From positions 1 to 51,213 of the forward strand of contig ONXP01000065.1 of the NCBI GenBank assembly GCA_900321865.1: a stretch of DNA of 51,213 nt, written 5' to 3'. The notes under the pieces were generated by a model that was given only the letters and a program-made list of their open reading frames with translations, did not search any database and had not been told where the DNA came from. Source of the DNA: an uncultured Elusimicrobia bacterium (GTDB lineage: Bacteria > RUG730). Shown one piece after another: positions 17,128 to 51,213 of this stretch (positions are counted from its first letter, which is position 1; each line of letters starts with the position of its first letter). The position numbers and the translations under genes were made by a program.

Positions 17128-18684
17128 TTATTGATTATAAAGATTTTTTACTAATTCTTTTGCTTCTTTTTTATTGTTAATTTCTTTTAATGCCACTTTT
17201 TCGTCTAAAATATCTAAAATTTCGCCAACTTTTTTCCCGCTTGGAATATTTAAAATTTCCATAATTTCATATCCATCTAAAAATTTTTTTGATTTTTTAG
17301 CTTTAAAACTAAACAAAAACCAGTCTAAAACTTTTCTAACAAAAGTTATATAACTATTAAAATCTTCGTACAAAAAAATTTCGTTTAATTCGATATTTTG
17401 TAAATATGTTAAGCCTATTCTTCCTCTAATTGAAGCTAAAATATCCGCCGCACTAAAAAGTAAAAGATTTATAGCTATATTTTCATCTATTCTTTTAAAA
17501 AATCTGTAAATTGCTCTAGATGTAAGATCTTTCAATTTTGACAAATTGCTAGCTTGCATATGAAAAATTATAGATTGACTCAAAAAATGTAATTCTTTAT
17601 TGCTAAACTTTAAATTTTTAAAAATTTCCAAAGTTTTTTTTGCTCCAACTTCTTCATGATTTAAAAAATGAATTTTATCGTTTATAAAAGATTTACATTC
17701 AGGTTTTCCAATGTCGTGAAAAAGGCAAACCAGTCTAGAGAAAGCTAAATTATTTTTTAAAGATTTTCGAAAAATAGTAATAATTTTTTTATCCAAAACA
17801 TCTTTATTTGTGAAGATTTTATTTAAGTTTTTTACCAAAAAATCAAAACAGAATAATGTTTCTAATAAATGCCCAAAAAGTCCATCTTTGTGATAATAAA
17901 AATCTGTTTTATTTTTTAAAGAAATAAAATCAGATCCAAAAATATTTTCCAAAATTTTAGTTTCGTCTAAAAATAAAATGGAATTAAATAAATATTTTTT
18001 AGAAAAAATTTTAATAATTTCATCATGAATTCTTTCTTTTGCAGATAAGTTTATTAAATTTGCATTTTCTAAAATTTGAGTTTTTGTTTTTTTCTCTATA
18101 TTAATTTTTTTTTGATCAAAAATTCTAATTGCTCTCAAAATTCTCAAAGGATCTTCCGTAAAAATGCTCTTATTATTCATTCTGATAATTTTATGTTTTA
18201 GGTCAAAAACGGCTTCTTTAGGATACAAAAAAAATTTATAATCAATATTATAAATTTCATTTAAATTATTTTCTTTTAAATTTTCTAAAATTTTTGAAAA
18301 TTTTTCTAAATTTATAGCAAAGGAATTTACAGTAAAATCTCTTTTTTGAAGATCTAAATTTATATTTTTACCTCTAAAATTTGTAAAATCCAATTGAATT
18401 GATACTTTCTTATTGATTTTTTTGACTATTCTATAACTTTTATTTTCTTCATCTAATTCTATGAAAGCACCTTTTATATTTTTAGAAAAATTATAGGAAA
18501 AATTTTCAGTTTTTTTATTGACAGCAAAGTCTAAATCTAAAGAAATCTTTTTTAAAAATAAATCCCTTAAAAATCCACCTACAACAAAAATCTCTATATC
18601 AGGGAAATTATAATTTTTAAAAATAATTAGTTTTTGTAAAAAAGTTTTAATAATATTTAGTCTTTTTTTATGCTCATTTTTCAT
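17128..18684 (-). CDS. cca: CCA-adding enzyme / tRNA nucleotidyltransferase with HD domain
   Basis: This class II polymerase-beta-fold nucleotidyltransferase most likely adds or repairs the 3' CCA of tRNAs. The 518-residue protein has FVVGGFLRDLFLKKISLDLDF (split: GGFLRD and DLDFAV, metal Asp pair) near residues 31-53. It also has QKRDFTVNSFAINL (about 110) and EDPLRILRAIRIF (about 177), all hallmark motifs. An HD domain follows with LVCLFHDIGKPE and NHEEVG (about 325-355). A poly(A) polymerase role is possible, but the one tRNA in this window has no encoded CCA, which would require such an enzyme. It overlaps the nitroreductase gene by four bases. Confidence 0.88.
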   Translation of the reverse strand: MKNEHKKRLNIIKTFLQKLIIFKNYNFPDIEIFVVGGFLRDLFLKKISLDLDFAVNKKTENFSYNFSKNIKGAFIELDEENKSYRIVKKINKKVSIQLDFTNFRGKNINLDLQKRDFTVNSFAINLEKFSKILENLKENNLNEIYNIDYKFFLYPKEAVFDLKHKIIRMNNKSIFTEDPLRILRAIRIFDQKKINIEKKTKTQILENANLINLSAKERIHDEIIKIFSKKYLFNSILFLDETKILENIFGSDFISLKNKTDFYYHKDGLFGHLLETLFCFDFLVKNLNKIFTNKDVLDKKIITIFRKSLKNNLAFSRLVCLFHDIGKPECKSFINDKIHFLNHEEVGAKKTLEIFKNLKFSNKELHFLSQSIIFHMQASNLSKLKDLTSRAIYRFFKRIDENIAINLLLFSAADILASIRGRIGLTYLQNIELNEIFLYEDFNSYITFVRKVLDWFLFSFKAKKSKKFLDGYEIMEILNIPSGKKVGEILDILDEKVALKEINNKKEAKELVKNLYNQ

Positions 18685-19205
18685 AAATAATAAACATAAT
18701 TTTCTTTTATTTTTTTAGTTTTTTTTGCTTCATCATTTTTATAACCTATAGCGAGATGTCCTATTCCCTCATAATTTCCAATTATTCCCAATTTATCTAA
18801 AATCTTTTTCCCAAAATCTGTTTCAAATTCTTCTTTGGCTCTATGTATCCAAATATTTCCAAGCCCCAAGGCTTCTGCAGCCAGCATCATATTGCCAAGA
18901 ACTAAAGTGCCATCATACAAATATGTAAAAACACTTTTATCTGCTAAAACTACTAAAATTATAGGAGCATTGTAAAATGGATCAAAGCCTTTTTGATAAT
19001 TTCCAATTTTTCTATTTTCCTCAGAAAATTTATCTCTTAAATTTTTATCTTTTATAACCAAAATTATAGGCGATTGCTTTCCCATGCCACTTGCTGCATA
19101 TGTTCCAGCTTTTACGATTTTTTCAATATCTTCGCCATCCACCATATCAGATTTAAAATTTCTAGTGCTAGATCGCCTTTCTATAATTTTAAAGATGTTT
19201 TCCAT
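18681..19205 (-). CDS. Nitroreductase-family flavoprotein
   Basis: A 174-residue FMN-dependent oxidoreductase of the nitroreductase superfamily. The N-terminal RRSSTRNFKSDMV (about 9-21) is the typical FMN-phosphate contact, AAEALGLGNIWIH (about 109-121) is the conserved helix-strand core, and IGYKNDEAKKTKK the C-terminal GYP-like region. Small size is normal for single-domain members. The physiological substrate is unknown; candidates are quinones, nitro compounds or flavins. It overlaps the following cca gene (ATGA) and is preceded 59 bases upstream by another flavoprotein gene on the same strand. Confidence 0.88.
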   Translation of the reverse strand: MENIFKIIERRSSTRNFKSDMVDGEDIEKIVKAGTYAASGMGKQSPIILVIKDKNLRDKFSEENRKIGNYQKGFDPFYNAPIILVVLADKSVFTYLYDGTLVLGNMMLAAEALGLGNIWIHRAKEEFETDFGKKILDKLGIIGNYEGIGHLAIGYKNDEAKKTKKIKENYVYYL

Positions 19206-19264: not shown

Positions 19265-19804
19265 TTAAATATTTTTTCCCATATCATAAGCTTTGTCTAA
19301 TAAATCTTTGTGCTTTTCAGCATCTTTTGCATCTCCCAACCCTTTTCCTAAAACAGTTCCTTTTAAACTTGATTTTTCAAAACAAGAAGCAAAGCCCTCT
19401 ATATCTTTTATTGCTACATTAAATGCTTCGTCATTTGAATCAAAAGCTGATGCTATAAAATAAATATCTCTAAAAGAATAATCCGTGTTATAAAGTGGAT
19501 TCATTCTATCCAAAAAAGTTTTTAGTTGCCCTGAAACAGAATAATAATATATAGGAGTTGCAAAAACTATTACATCAGATTCTTTTATTTTTTCTAATAA
19601 ATCATTAATATCATCATTTATTATACATCTATGCAATTTTTGACAAGCAAGGCAACCTTTACAAAACTCCATTTTTAAATCTTTAATCGATATAAAAGAA
19701 ACCTTATTTCCTGCATCCAATGCCCCATCTCTAAACTTTTTTGCCAAAATATCTGAATTCCCGCCAATTCTTTTAGTAGACGAAATTATAAAGGCTTTTT
19801 TCAT
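19265..19804 (-). CDS. Flavodoxin-fold NAD(P)H:FMN reductase with a four-cysteine motif
   Basis: A 179-residue flavodoxin-like protein. The N-terminal IISSTKRIGGNSDILAKKF is the FMN-phosphate loop, and FATPIYYYSVSGQLKTFLDR (about 89-108) is the family's flavin-contacting segment. Between them, FCKGCLACQKLHRC (about 48-61) spaces four cysteines as CX2CX2CX5C. This matches the compact motif that binds a 4Fe-4S cluster in iron-sulfur flavoproteins (Isf), though many homologues keep the cysteines with no proven cluster. It is likely a redox enzyme of anaerobic metabolism acting with the adjacent nitroreductase. RBS GAGG precedes the ATG. Confidence 0.85.
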   Translation of the reverse strand: MKKAFIISSTKRIGGNSDILAKKFRDGALDAGNKVSFISIKDLKMEFCKGCLACQKLHRCIINDDINDLLEKIKESDVIVFATPIYYYSVSGQLKTFLDRMNPLYNTDYSFRDIYFIASAFDSNDEAFNVAIKDIEGFASCFEKSSLKGTVLGKGLGDAKDAEKHKDLLDKAYDMGKNI

Positions 19805-20060: not shown

Positions 20061-21089
20061 TTATTTGCTAATATCTATTAAATAGTAATTTCTTTTCCCA
20101 AGACCATTTTTTTCTGCACTTTCTAAGGTATGCAAGCCATTTTTATTTTTTATCCTCTCTAAAAGAGATTTACTCCCTTTAGCGAGACTTATAATATCTA
20201 TACAAGCCTGATCTAGTGCAACAGGATCATTTGAGGCCAAAACCCCTATATCGAGAATATCAGGCTCTGTTGGATTACCATTACAATCACAATCTACAGA
20301 AAGTCTATTCATAACATTTATATATGTAATATTTTTCCCATTATTCATATAATCACTCACAGCCTTGCCAGCATCTGCCATCGCTTCACAAAATTCATTT
20401 TGATCTCCACCCATCCAAGTAGTCCTACTTTTTCCACCAGTATGAATAAATTTTTTCCCCATCGATGAAGCAAAACCTATAGAAATATTTTTTATAGCTC
20501 CACCAAATCCTGACATTTTATCCCCTTTAAAATGAGAAACAACTACATAACTGCTATAATTTTTAAAATGTGTCCCAATAAAATTTTCTTTTAAAATTAT
20601 ACCTTTTCTGACTGGAATAGATATATCACCTTCGCTATCTAAAATATCAACATTAGTTACATCTGCAAAACCGTGTTCTTTAGCAACTTCCAGGTGCATT
20701 GTAGTATTCATTCTCCTACCGGGATATATAACATTACACTCTACGATATTTGCATTTAACTCTGAAATCAAAGATTTTAATAATTCTGGCCTTAAATAAT
20801 TACTTTTTGGAGGTTCCCCAATAGAAATCTTTAAACCAACTTTCCCAGCTGGTTTAAAATCTAATTTTTTATAAATATTTAAAATAGACTCCGCTGTTAT
20901 ATCTTTGGTAAAATAAACTAAGGGAATATCTTTTTCTTTTTTTAAATATTTTAAATTTTTAAATTTTATAGTTTGACCCGAATTTGTTAGAATAAAATCT
21001 TTATTTTTTGAATTTGACTTTGCATCAGATATAGAGATAAAAAAAATAAAACAAAAAGAAAAAAATAGAAGCAATTTAAAATATTTCAT
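20061..21089 (-). CDS. Exported DUF362-domain protein
   Basis: A 342-residue protein with a signal peptide (MKYFKLLLFFSFCFIFFISI, likely cut after SDA). Its main domain matches DUF362: GLKISIGEPPKSNYLRPELLK, a central VVSHFKGDKMSGFGGAIKN block, ARG/LYS-rich MGKKFIHTGG and the C-terminal GVLASNDPVALDQACIDII. DUF362 function is poorly known, and members are often linked to iron-sulfur proteins. The ferredoxin module seen in some is missing here; only CDCNGNP remains. The start at 21089 has GGGAG five bases upstream. The ATG at 21101 would contain that RBS. It lies 66 bases downstream of the exported cupin gene, so an operon is likely. Confidence 0.78.
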   Translation of the reverse strand: MKYFKLLLFFSFCFIFFISISDAKSNSKNKDFILTNSGQTIKFKNLKYLKKEKDIPLVYFTKDITAESILNIYKKLDFKPAGKVGLKISIGEPPKSNYLRPELLKSLISELNANIVECNVIYPGRRMNTTMHLEVAKEHGFADVTNVDILDSEGDISIPVRKGIILKENFIGTHFKNYSSYVVVSHFKGDKMSGFGGAIKNISIGFASSMGKKFIHTGGKSRTTWMGGDQNEFCEAMADAGKAVSDYMNNGKNITYINVMNRLSVDCDCNGNPTEPDILDIGVLASNDPVALDQACIDIISLAKGSKSLLERIKNKNGLHTLESAEKNGLGKRNYYLIDISK

Positions 21090-21155
21090 AAATACTCCCA
21101 TAAATATTTAATAATATTTTATATTACTTTATTTTCACTTTTTTAGATACTTTTT

Positions 21156-21614
21156 TTATTGTTTATCCACAACTAACGAAAAAAAGTTAAACCAAGATTT
21201 TTCATTTGCCCCTAACCAAAATTTTTCTCCTGGCTCTATAAAAATAATATCTCCAAAATTTATTTGTTTTACTTTCTCATTTTCTTTTTGATATTCCCCA
21301 ATACCTCCAACCGAAATCAAAATTTCATATTTATCATCATTCTTTCTCCATAAAGTTTTACATTTGGGTTCAAGTGTAATATTACTCATTCCTTTTTGTA
21401 TATTTTCTAAATTTGAAACCCAAGCTCTTCCAGTAAAAAAACCTTTATTCTTCTCTACTTCTTCTCCAATATTAAAAATGGAAATTTTCTTAAAATCTTT
21501 GATATCACCAACTTTTATAGCATGTTTTAATTTTTTATTTTTAAAATTTGTTGCAAGTGATGATATCATAATACATAGAGCCAAAACATTAACATTTAAA
21601 TTATCTTTCATCAT
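21156..21614 (-). CDS. Exported cupin-fold protein lacking metal-binding histidines
   Basis: A 152-residue protein with an N-terminal hydrophobic segment (VNVLALCIMISSLA, about 8-21) that looks like a signal peptide or anchor. The rest follows a small cupin_2 pattern: FTGRAWVSNL, NITLEPKCKTLWRKNDDKYE, VGGIGEYQKE, INFGDIIFIEPGEKFWLGAN. In relatives of this pattern the first box reads about TxWHTHxxxQ and the second GxxHWHGA. Here both boxes have lost their histidines (LWRKND and EKFWLGA), so it probably does not bind a metal in the usual way. AGGAG lies seven bases before the ATG. It is first gene of a probable two-gene unit with DUF362. Confidence 0.65.
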   Translation of the reverse strand: MMKDNLNVNVLALCIMISSLATNFKNKKLKHAIKVGDIKDFKKISIFNIGEEVEKNKGFFTGRAWVSNLENIQKGMSNITLEPKCKTLWRKNDDKYEILISVGGIGEYQKENEKVKQINFGDIIFIEPGEKFWLGANEKSWFNFFSLVVDKQ

Positions 21615-21980: not shown

Positions 21981-22290
21981 TTACTGCTGATTTATAAAAT
22001 CTTTCATTATTTTTAGTTCATTTACTTCAAGCATAGGAAAATATAAATTATTTTTTAAATCATCTTTTTTTACATCTAGCATAATACTTCCCGTAGCCAA
22101 TGCTTCCATCTGCACTTTATATTCTTTTGAAAACAAAAATTTAACAAGTTCAATCCTTCTAGCTTCTTCCGTAAATGTATAATATCATCCTTTGCCTTTT
22201 CTTCAATATTTATTTGACCTCTTACTGGACAAAATAACTTCATAACATTACCACAAAAAAATATCTTTTTATTATCTATTCTTCCAATTT
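21981..22290 (-). pseudogene. Degraded fragment resembling a type I specificity subunit (HsdS) C terminus
   Basis: Minus strand, ending at TAA 21981-21983. The last open stretch (about 65 codons) reads TEEARRIELVKFLFSKEY, KVQMEALATGSIMLDVKKDD, then LKNNLYFPMLEVNELKIMKD. The pattern '...L.S..Y..Q...LATGS....+KKDDL...FP.L...E' is that of the segment after a target-recognition domain in HsdS or HsdS-like methylases. Upstream, in another frame, GNVMKLFCPVRGQINIEEKA probably belongs to the same ancestor. A frameshift separates them near 22180. No start codon or N-terminal part exists before leuS ends at 22340. The assignment is by pattern only. Confidence 0.4.
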
Positions 22291-22339
22291 TTTAAATCTA
22301 AATAAACAAAAATAAAATAAATTTTTTAAATTTAGCTTT

Positions 22340-42948: not shown

Positions 42949-44016
42949 TTAGATGTTTTTTTTCAAATAAAATACTTCTTTTATAACTTTTGCTAAAAGT
43001 ATAGGATCATGTCTAAGGTATAAATCTTTTTTATTTTTCAAAAATTTTACAGAAATTTTCTTAATTTTTTTTTGTTTACATATTTCTTCTGTCAAATTAT
43101 CCATAACCGGTTTTTGTTTAAAAGAAAAATATTTTTTCAATAAATTTTTTGGCAATGAAGAATTATCACTGACTAATATAAAATCTAAAATTCCTTTCCC
43201 TAAATATTTTTCTAATATATTCAAATAATCTAAAACTTTTAAATTATTAGTTTCTCCATTTTGCTCCATTATATTACAAACAAAAATTTTTATAGCTTTT
43301 TTATTTTTTTTTATACTATCTGTAATATCTTTAATCAAAAGATTAGAAATGATGCTACTATAAAAACTCCCAGGCCCTATTATAATAATATCTGCATCTA
43401 GAATGGATTTTATGGCAATTCTAGATGCTTTAGGACTACTAGGTTCAAGCCAAATATCAGAAATTTCACCTAATGTAGAGACAATATTAGATTCTCCTTT
43501 TATTATTCCAGTTTTTTCTCCATTAAAAATTTTCCTAGCTAAAAGTTTTATTTTCTCAAAACTAGATGGAATAACCTTCCCTCTGGTTAATAAAATTTTA
43601 TTCGCTTCTATAATACCCTTTTCAAAACTGCCGAAAACTTCTGATAAAGCTAAAATAAACAAATTTCCAAAACTATGACCATTAAATTTTGAACTTTTAT
43701 TAGGAATATTAAATCTGTAATCAAATAATTTAGCTAGCAAAAAATCTTTATCTGCCATCGCTACTAAACAATTTCTAATGTCCCCTGGCGGAATGATATC
43801 AAATTCCTCTCTAAGTTTCCCAGAACTTCCGCCATCATCTGAAACAGCGACTATTGCAGACAAATTTTTGTTATATTTTTTTAAGCCTAAAATAGCATTA
43901 GAAAGTCCCGTTCCTCCACCAATAAGAGCAATTTTTATATCTTTAAAATTTAAATTTTTCTTCTTTTTAAATTTCAACTTAAATTTAAGTTTAGAAAATA
44001 AAGGCTTTAAAATCAT
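42949..44016 (-). CDS. yvcK: YvcK/CofD-like protein (gluconeogenesis and cell-shape factor)
   Basis: The 355-residue protein has IALIGGGTGLSNAILGLKKY (about 29-48), AVSDDGGSSGKLREEF (about 56-71), PPGDIRNCLVAMAD and GHSFGNLFILALSEV, the full YvcK signature. YvcK is needed in Bacillus for growth on gluconeogenic carbon and for normal cell shape, and binds UDP-sugars. An N-terminal lysine/phenylalanine-rich extension of about 25 residues is present. It overlaps rapZ by four bases (ATGA), the usual RapZ-YvcK pairing. Confidence 0.95.
   Translation of the reverse strand: MILKPLFSKLKFKLKFKKKKNLNFKDIKIALIGGGTGLSNAILGLKKYNKNLSAIVAVSDDGGSSGKLREEFDIIPPGDIRNCLVAMADKDFLLAKLFDYRFNIPNKSSKFNGHSFGNLFILALSEVFGSFEKGIIEANKILLTRGKVIPSSFEKIKLLARKIFNGEKTGIIKGESNIVSTLGEISDIWLEPSSPKASRIAIKSILDADIIIIGPGSFYSSIISNLLIKDITDSIKKNKKAIKIFVCNIMEQNGETNNLKVLDYLNILEKYLGKGILDFILVSDNSSLPKNLLKKYFSFKQKPVMDNLTEEICKQKKIKKISVKFLKNKKDLYLRHDPILLAKVIKEVFYLKKNI

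Positions 44017-46400: not shown

Positions 46401-51213
<4,813 letters not shown>

Follow-up and report, generated by a model that had tools for sequence, protein, structure and literature searches.

The cupin and DUF362 genes described here are best explained, with a probability of roughly one half, as a reduced, fast-evolving piece, gained by lateral transfer, of the CMD-cupin/DUF362/flavoprotein redox neighbourhood of gut Bacteroidales and Selenomonas, with the cupin as a metal-free pseudoenzyme. Judged from alignment with its homologues, the cupin has lost five histidines and a metal-binding glutamine, and most other conserved residues of its barrel are kept. In the adjoining DUF362 protein the anchor-like lysine and histidine are intact, and the histidine at the putative acid/base position is replaced by an aspartate. 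The loss of histidines in the cupin thus has a counterpart in the adjacent protein, in what would be a variant of known families.

If true, this offers a clear example from nature of a metalloenzyme-type cupin that has become a metal-free partner, and the paralogue that keeps its histidines in the same genome serves as a control. DUF362, with its predicted LarA fold and the putative LarA anchor lysine and histidine, occurs in sampled genomes that are mostly without detectable LarC, which makes the ligand of DUF362 directly testable.

Gene layout, coding status and export signals

The window, i.e. the whole stretch of 51,213 nucleotides that was analysed, has a GC content of 26% and belongs to an AT-rich host assembly of 1.09 Mb in 88 contigs that is 82% complete. 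The host phylum is tiny and little known, and is represented in the searched set by three genomes including the host. The Lnt-type gene in the window suggests a two-membrane cell. The original prediction had placed two open reading frames in tandem at 20061-21614, and their positions, minus strand and order were confirmed; the cupin lies upstream of DUF362 at a spacing of 54 bp (Table 1). Neither a terminator-like nor a promoter-like excess was found around the two genes. When the pieces of the remnant upstream of the cupin were searched apart, no convincing Pfam family was found, and the one match, to a fungal PH-like domain, was below threshold.

Table 1. Coordinates of the features discussed; positions refer to the window except in the last row.
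Feature	Position	Strand	Length	Description
Cupin, stand-alone	21156-21614	−	152 aa	Probable Sec signal at the N-terminus (residues ~1-22); barrel at ~50-150
DUF362 protein, exported-type	20061-21101	−	346 aa	Met5 (21089) is the likely true start; PF04015
NADPH-dependent FMN reductase / flavodoxin-like protein	19265-19804	−	179 aa	Downstream of DUF362, gap 256 bp
Nitroreductase family protein	18681-19205	−	174 aa	Next gene downstream of the FMN reductase
Lnt-type gene (apolipoprotein N-acyltransferase)	3854-5386			
Gene-like remnant, 2 frames	21981-22291	−		Between leucyl-tRNA synthetase and cupin, immediately upstream of the cupin
CofD-family (2-phospho-L-lactate transferase) protein	42949-44016	−		PF01933, 283 bits
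Restriction-enzyme-like helicase protein (ResIII, HSDR_N)	46401-49091	+		
CMD-CMD-cupin fusion, paralogue of the window cupin	718-1959 (L002, contig C7, same genome)			PF02627 in two stretches and PF07883; hydrophobic leader

The cupin is a real coding gene. Its in-frame codon score is 0.333, compared with 0.23-0.37 for the seven other scored genes, and the shifted frames on the same strand score -0.62 and -0.80. In the flanking intergenic stretch each of the six frames scores between -0.48 and -0.66. One antisense frame of the cupin scores 0.02, and the same register is nearest to zero in the other scored genes too (-0.09 to -0.23). A Shine-Dalgarno sequence, AGGAG, stands 7 bases ahead of the start, and together with the codon score this rules out the cupin as a chance open reading frame.

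N-terminal export signals had been predicted for both proteins. For DUF362 this stands, since its leader (LLLFFSFCFIFFISISDA/KS), read by eye, is plainly that of an exported protein; the start at Met5 (21089) is possibly the better one, being preceded by GGGAG in the same reading by eye. The leader of the cupin is weaker and its export is only likely, with a core, VNVLALCIMI, of mean hydropathy 2.77 compared with 2.88 in DUF362 and up to 2.25, further in, in a cytoplasmic-type neighbour, and with an n-region of almost no net charge. A loose lipobox pattern fits 42 of the 82 relatives of the DUF362 protein, and four relatives from Bacillota start without a leader. Those of Parabacteroides and Selenomonas (L118, L120) open with MSRRNF and MTRRNF, which we take to be twin-arginine-like leaders; such leaders would fit the export of a folded, cofactor-loaded protein. 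In the host, the cupin and the DUF362 protein would both act outside the cytoplasm.

The cupin and its metal-site positions

The profile scores of the cupin are low: the Cupin_2 model of Pfam gives 16.6 bits, below the cut-off of 27.2, and the best NCBIfam model, (R)-mandelonitrile lyase NF049940 (E=2.5e-13), gives 50 bits, below the cut-off of 140. Its PDB neighbours by sequence (phmmer) are GtHNL (8oz8, 4bif), AcHNL (4uxa) and TM1010 (2f4p). An AlphaFold model built on a 13-row alignment is a cupin barrel with a mean pLDDT of 73.8 and a block pLDDT of 85-94 across residues 61-150, and chains of 2f4p, 8oz8, 4bif and 4uxa fill ranks 1-6 of a Foldseek search with this model (E 5.7e-10 to 6.6e-9). 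The barrel and these ranks bear out the earlier claim that the cupin keeps the fold pattern. The protein is a member of the Mn-hydroxynitrile-lyase-like cupins. A Pfam search of its 152 aa gave no match to a CMD domain, so that it is a cupin alone and no CMD-cupin fusion.

Residues R90, N92, E97, F132, L134 and F144 stand where the family has H, H, Q, H, H and H. In the phmmer alignment, counted along, H53, H55, Q59, H94 and residue 96 of GtHNL fall on R90, N92, E97, F132 and L134 (8oz8 is the H96A variant of GtHNL), and the further family histidine falls on F144 in the alignment of homologues. H53, H55, Q59 and H94 of GtHNL are presumably the Mn ligands. All five family histidines are present in 51 of 51 distinct aligned homologues, a collection that leans to histidine-bearing members since it was made with the window cupin and then with a 17-row profile in which 16 rows had the histidines. 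The window cupin has none of the five, its metal-binding glutamine has become a glutamate, and its sole histidine is residue 31, outside the barrel, which holds a single cysteine, C85. When the comparison is limited to columns that the window cupin covers and that reach at least 90% conservation, 0 of 6 metal-site columns are kept versus 18 of 25 in the rest of the core (Fisher p=0.002, to be read with the mutual relatedness of the homologue rows in mind). The C-terminal tail of the family, WLEPV..Y, is also missing.

The 51 homologues (52 before identical sequences were merged) come from several sources: 12 from the 80 DUF362 loci described below, 31 from 30 loci of one phylum, inferred to be Bacillota, which were the best 30 of the matches in 50 of 398 genomes, five from plasmids (L115, L116, L117, L120 and L121; the search for cupins on plasmids matched 98 records and drew on four of them), two from other genomes, and the paralogue from the host itself. 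Three cupins were also seen on viral contigs; two have all histidines and the third ends after the first two. No histidine-less cupin was detected elsewhere in the 80 DUF362 loci or among the 51 aligned homologues, and because no other such member was found, the conservation of the histidine-less state is beyond the reach of one genome.

These alignments agree with the original prediction that the histidines are replaced in both cupin motifs. A branch of cupins that never had them, which had been named as the finding that would speak against this, is rejected by the 51 of 51 aligned homologues with all five, and the histidines were therefore lost in the window cupin. The paralogue in the same genome retains all five family histidines in its cupin domain, whose core shares on average 67% of its residues with those of the other homologues, versus 35% for the window cupin, and this intact copy disfavours genome-wide degeneration as the sole cause of the loss. 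Since both the homologues and the paralogue keep the histidines, the loss cannot be put down to this branch of cupins or to the whole genome.

Cupins without a metal centre are already known as such, and the superfamily includes catalytically inactive storage proteins as well as metal-independent members (PMC3765361, excerpt); here the loss of histidines is rather extreme for the aligned family. A binding or sensing subunit had been proposed in preference to an enzyme; as the fold is kept and the histidines are lost, a role in binding or as a partner is a better reading than the metal chemistry of the family. The metal-free barrel may bind a small organic ligand, or it may pack on the DUF362 protein as a non-catalytic partner.

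The DUF362 protein and its relatives

Over its full length (1-200) the PF04015 profile matches the DUF362 protein, with 142.9 bits against a gathering score of 24. The cysteine-rich, iron-sulphur-type insert is absent from the window protein and present in 15 of 16 distant homologues, the sixteenth being a fragment that ends before the insert. Nearer relatives, of which a scan of named genomes gave 177, were taken from the best 80 loci, with 39-47% identity in the best segment and 82 DUF362 open reading frames; these 80 loci are mostly from rumen and gut Bacteroidales, with a few from Bacillota. No functional study of DUF362 was found among the papers of one open library.

The predicted structure of the window protein (mean pLDDT 83.2) resembles lactate racemase. 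In Foldseek, 18 of ranks 1-19 carry the title of lactate/malate racemase or LarA-like protein, and the other is 4nar, an uncharacterised Thermotoga protein. With VIA-align, 19 chains have Z>=8, and 12 entries, namely 11 of LarA/racemase and 4nar, have Z 13.3-15.2, with the next row at Z 4.6. The structural alignments mostly end near LarA residue 261-286, and four reach 419-422. On the strength of this model, the DUF362 protein has the predicted fold of the N-domain of LarA. DUF362 and DUF2088/LarA are placed in one Pfam clan, CL0471 (PMC11770544, excerpt).

Individual residues were compared through a search of the DUF362 profile against the PDB, which gave five weak matches (E 0.11-0.14), with LarA-Sp (9q2u) second at E=0.12; the remaining four are SbtB/PII-like proteins, which have a different fold. 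In this weak LarA-Sp alignment K204 falls on Lys195 and H220 on His211, which in LarA-Sp are the NPN-linked lysine and the fourth Ni ligand (PMC12393405, excerpt) and which correspond to K184 and H200 of LarA1 (PMC11770544, excerpt). By the same weak alignment and by spacing, D194 aligns with LarA-Sp residue 185, an asparagine at the position of the second catalytic histidine (H174) of other LarAs; this residue, 185 as counted here, is printed as Asn195 in the excerpt of PMC12393405. Because the LarA profile match is weak and the second of five, the mapping rests on fold, motif and spacing and not on residue-level superposition.

Within the family the same positions are highly conserved. Equivalents of K204 and H220 are kept in all 101 relatives (82/82 near, 16/16 distant and 3/3 plasmid-borne), usually with a spacing of +16 from lysine to histidine, which is 17 in Selenomonas and longer in L021. 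The Cys-Asp-Cys motif (C271-D-C273 in the window) is present in 100 of the 101, the exception being a fragment. Position 194, the histidine of the SHFKGH motif, is histidine in 101/101 relatives and aspartate in the window only; this histidine is invariant in the aligned relatives, yet it is no formal requirement of PF04015. With the truncated row L104 left out, 85 columns are invariant in 81 relatives, and the window protein keeps 71 of them. Other striking changes are S183 for aspartate and R266 for asparagine, with aspartate at position 183 in only 11 of the 16 distant homologues. With D194 in place of the histidine, the window protein would no longer perform the chemistry with two bases that may take place in its relatives.

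LarC (PF01969) was not found in the host genome (82% complete). Of 40 genomes that carry a related DUF362, sampled from the 80 loci, 37 likewise gave no LarC and three have it. The nickel-pincer nucleotide is therefore disfavoured as the cofactor of the window DUF362 protein.

Origin, alternative explanations and known systems

Neither the cupin nor DUF362 was found, at E<=0.001, in the two remaining genomes of the phylum, of which one is 76% and the other 97% complete. In the full DUF362 tree the window protein joins Parabacteroides (99/82), next to other Bacteroidota, on a branch of 4.67 versus a median of 0.083, and in a tree without Parabacteroides it is sister to the Bacteroidota rows (96/91); in both, long rows are possibly misplaced, and the full tree was made without L104 (truncated) and L073_367. 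A lateral gain from a Bacteroidota-like donor fits these observations.

Adjacency of the pair outside this strain, which the original prediction had proposed to look for, was found. A CMD-cupin lies within 100 bp of DUF362 on the same strand in 7 of the 80 loci, with the cupin upstream in five of the seven as in the window, and within 1 kb in 9/80, 3 kb in 11/80 and 8 kb in 13/80, where both 8 kb flanks are present in only 34 of the loci and L053 and L055 are near-copies. In these loci each cupin forms the C-terminal part of a CMD-cupin fusion and keeps every histidine, and no genome but this one showed the histidine-less pair, with the proviso that the searched set may be without the nearest records to the window. 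In 10 of the 80 loci a close relative of the FMN reductase of the window occurs no more than 8 kb from DUF362, in one of them within 100 bp, and any relative of this reductase within 300 bp in 11. The link of the nitroreductase to the pair is weak, because a relative near DUF362 was seen in only 1/80 loci. Genes of the flavodoxin, aldo/keto reductase, acetyltransferase, AraC regulator, flavin reductase and alpha/beta hydrolase families, one example of each being named by Pfam, are seen repeatedly near DUF362; their counts are lower bounds since DUF362 itself was missed in 7/80 loci. On the Selenomonas ruminantium plasmid pSRC1, aldo/keto reductase, SDR, YciI, CMD, flavodoxin and DUF362 stand in a row, and the CMD protein has a histidine-bearing cupin domain. 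Two annotated DUF362 genes sit among unrelated genes. The idea of a self-contained, unrecognised two-protein unit proved too narrow, as the relatives lie in larger redox clusters with histidine-bearing CMD-cupin fusions. What the window holds is thus a pared-down form of a redox neighbourhood that recurs elsewhere, and not a new unit of two.

The main rival to this explanation is decay, by which the cupin, and perhaps the DUF362 protein, would be a redundant copy under relaxed selection, open as a reading frame and functionless. Although we consider it unlikely on balance, it is serious because the altered pair is from one genome only, the cupin is without its C-terminal tail and the remnant of a gene adjoins. 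The cupin has lost its entire active site along with this tail, the DUF362 branch is very long (4.67 versus 0.083), the two-frame remnant is immediately upstream, and the intact paralogue could cover the function of the cupin. The pattern of change nevertheless speaks against decay, since the loss in the cupin is focused on the metal site (0/6 versus 18/25), its codon usage is normal with reading frame and Shine-Dalgarno sequence intact, and 71 of the 85 invariant columns are kept in DUF362. It is decidedly less probable that the cupin has remained an enzyme, working without metal in the manner of RmlC-type epimerases or holding a metal by other side chains, next to an active exported DUF362 enzyme with aspartate as its acid/base. 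Aspartate is able to act as an acid/base, and D194 could have this role in DUF362. Metal-independent sugar epimerases exist in the cupin superfamily (PMC3765361, excerpt), and LarA relatives with the second histidine changed to asparagine have been proposed to act on one enantiomer (PMC12393405, excerpt). However, R, N, E, F, L and F would make an improbable set of metal ligands, and inside the barrel there is no histidine and one cysteine, C85.

A smaller probability still attaches to the genes being chance neighbours that arrived with the redox cluster and work independently, with no two-protein unit between them. A cupin is lacking in the available flank of 67/80 DUF362 loci (34/80 with both 8 kb flanks), DUF362 also adjoins unrelated genes, and the cupin-only survey found cupins in 50/398 genomes of one phylum; the adjacency on the same strand within 100 bp in 7/80 loci, with the cupin upstream in five, and the loss of conserved histidines by both proteins in one genome point the other way. 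The least probable of the readings weighed is a two-subunit envelope complex of the exported DUF362 protein and the metal-free cupin, in which the DUF362 family would have a lysine-tethered cofactor other than the nickel-pincer nucleotide made by LarBCE, and the change from histidine to aspartate together with the cupin as a ligand-binding subunit would, in the lineage of the host, have made a sensor or carrier from a redox enzyme pair. Another cofactor is invoked there because the lysine and histidine are kept in 101/101 relatives while 37/40 hosts are without LarC.

Both proteins have relatives in known systems. With the Mn-dependent hydroxynitrile lyase-like cupins, the window cupin shares the barrel fold, the family motifs (which read TFEP, W, G.G.YQ, G, K.W.GA, SWF in the family) and the best PDB matches, and it differs in being without the five histidines, the glutamine and the C-terminal tail, in having a probable leader and in scoring below the NF049940 cut-off. 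The CMD-cupin fusions (PF02627 and PF07883) of gut anaerobes have a homologous cupin domain, N-terminal leaders and, in several loci, a position adjacent to DUF362, whereas the window cupin has neither a CMD domain nor any of the family histidines. The DUF362 proteins of Bacteroidales and Selenomonas without the iron-sulphur insert are similar to that of the window in sequence (~39-47% identity), in K204, H220 and the CDC motif, and in having leaders in most cases, and are distinguished from it by the histidine at D194, the aspartate at S183 and the asparagine at R266 as well as by the Sec-type leader of the window protein. Finally, the LarA superfamily shares with the window DUF362 protein the predicted N-domain fold and, by the weak alignment (E=0.12), a lysine and a histidine at the NPN-anchor positions; the window protein departs from it by the aspartate at the position of LarA His174, in a comparison in which most alignments cover the N-domain of LarA only.
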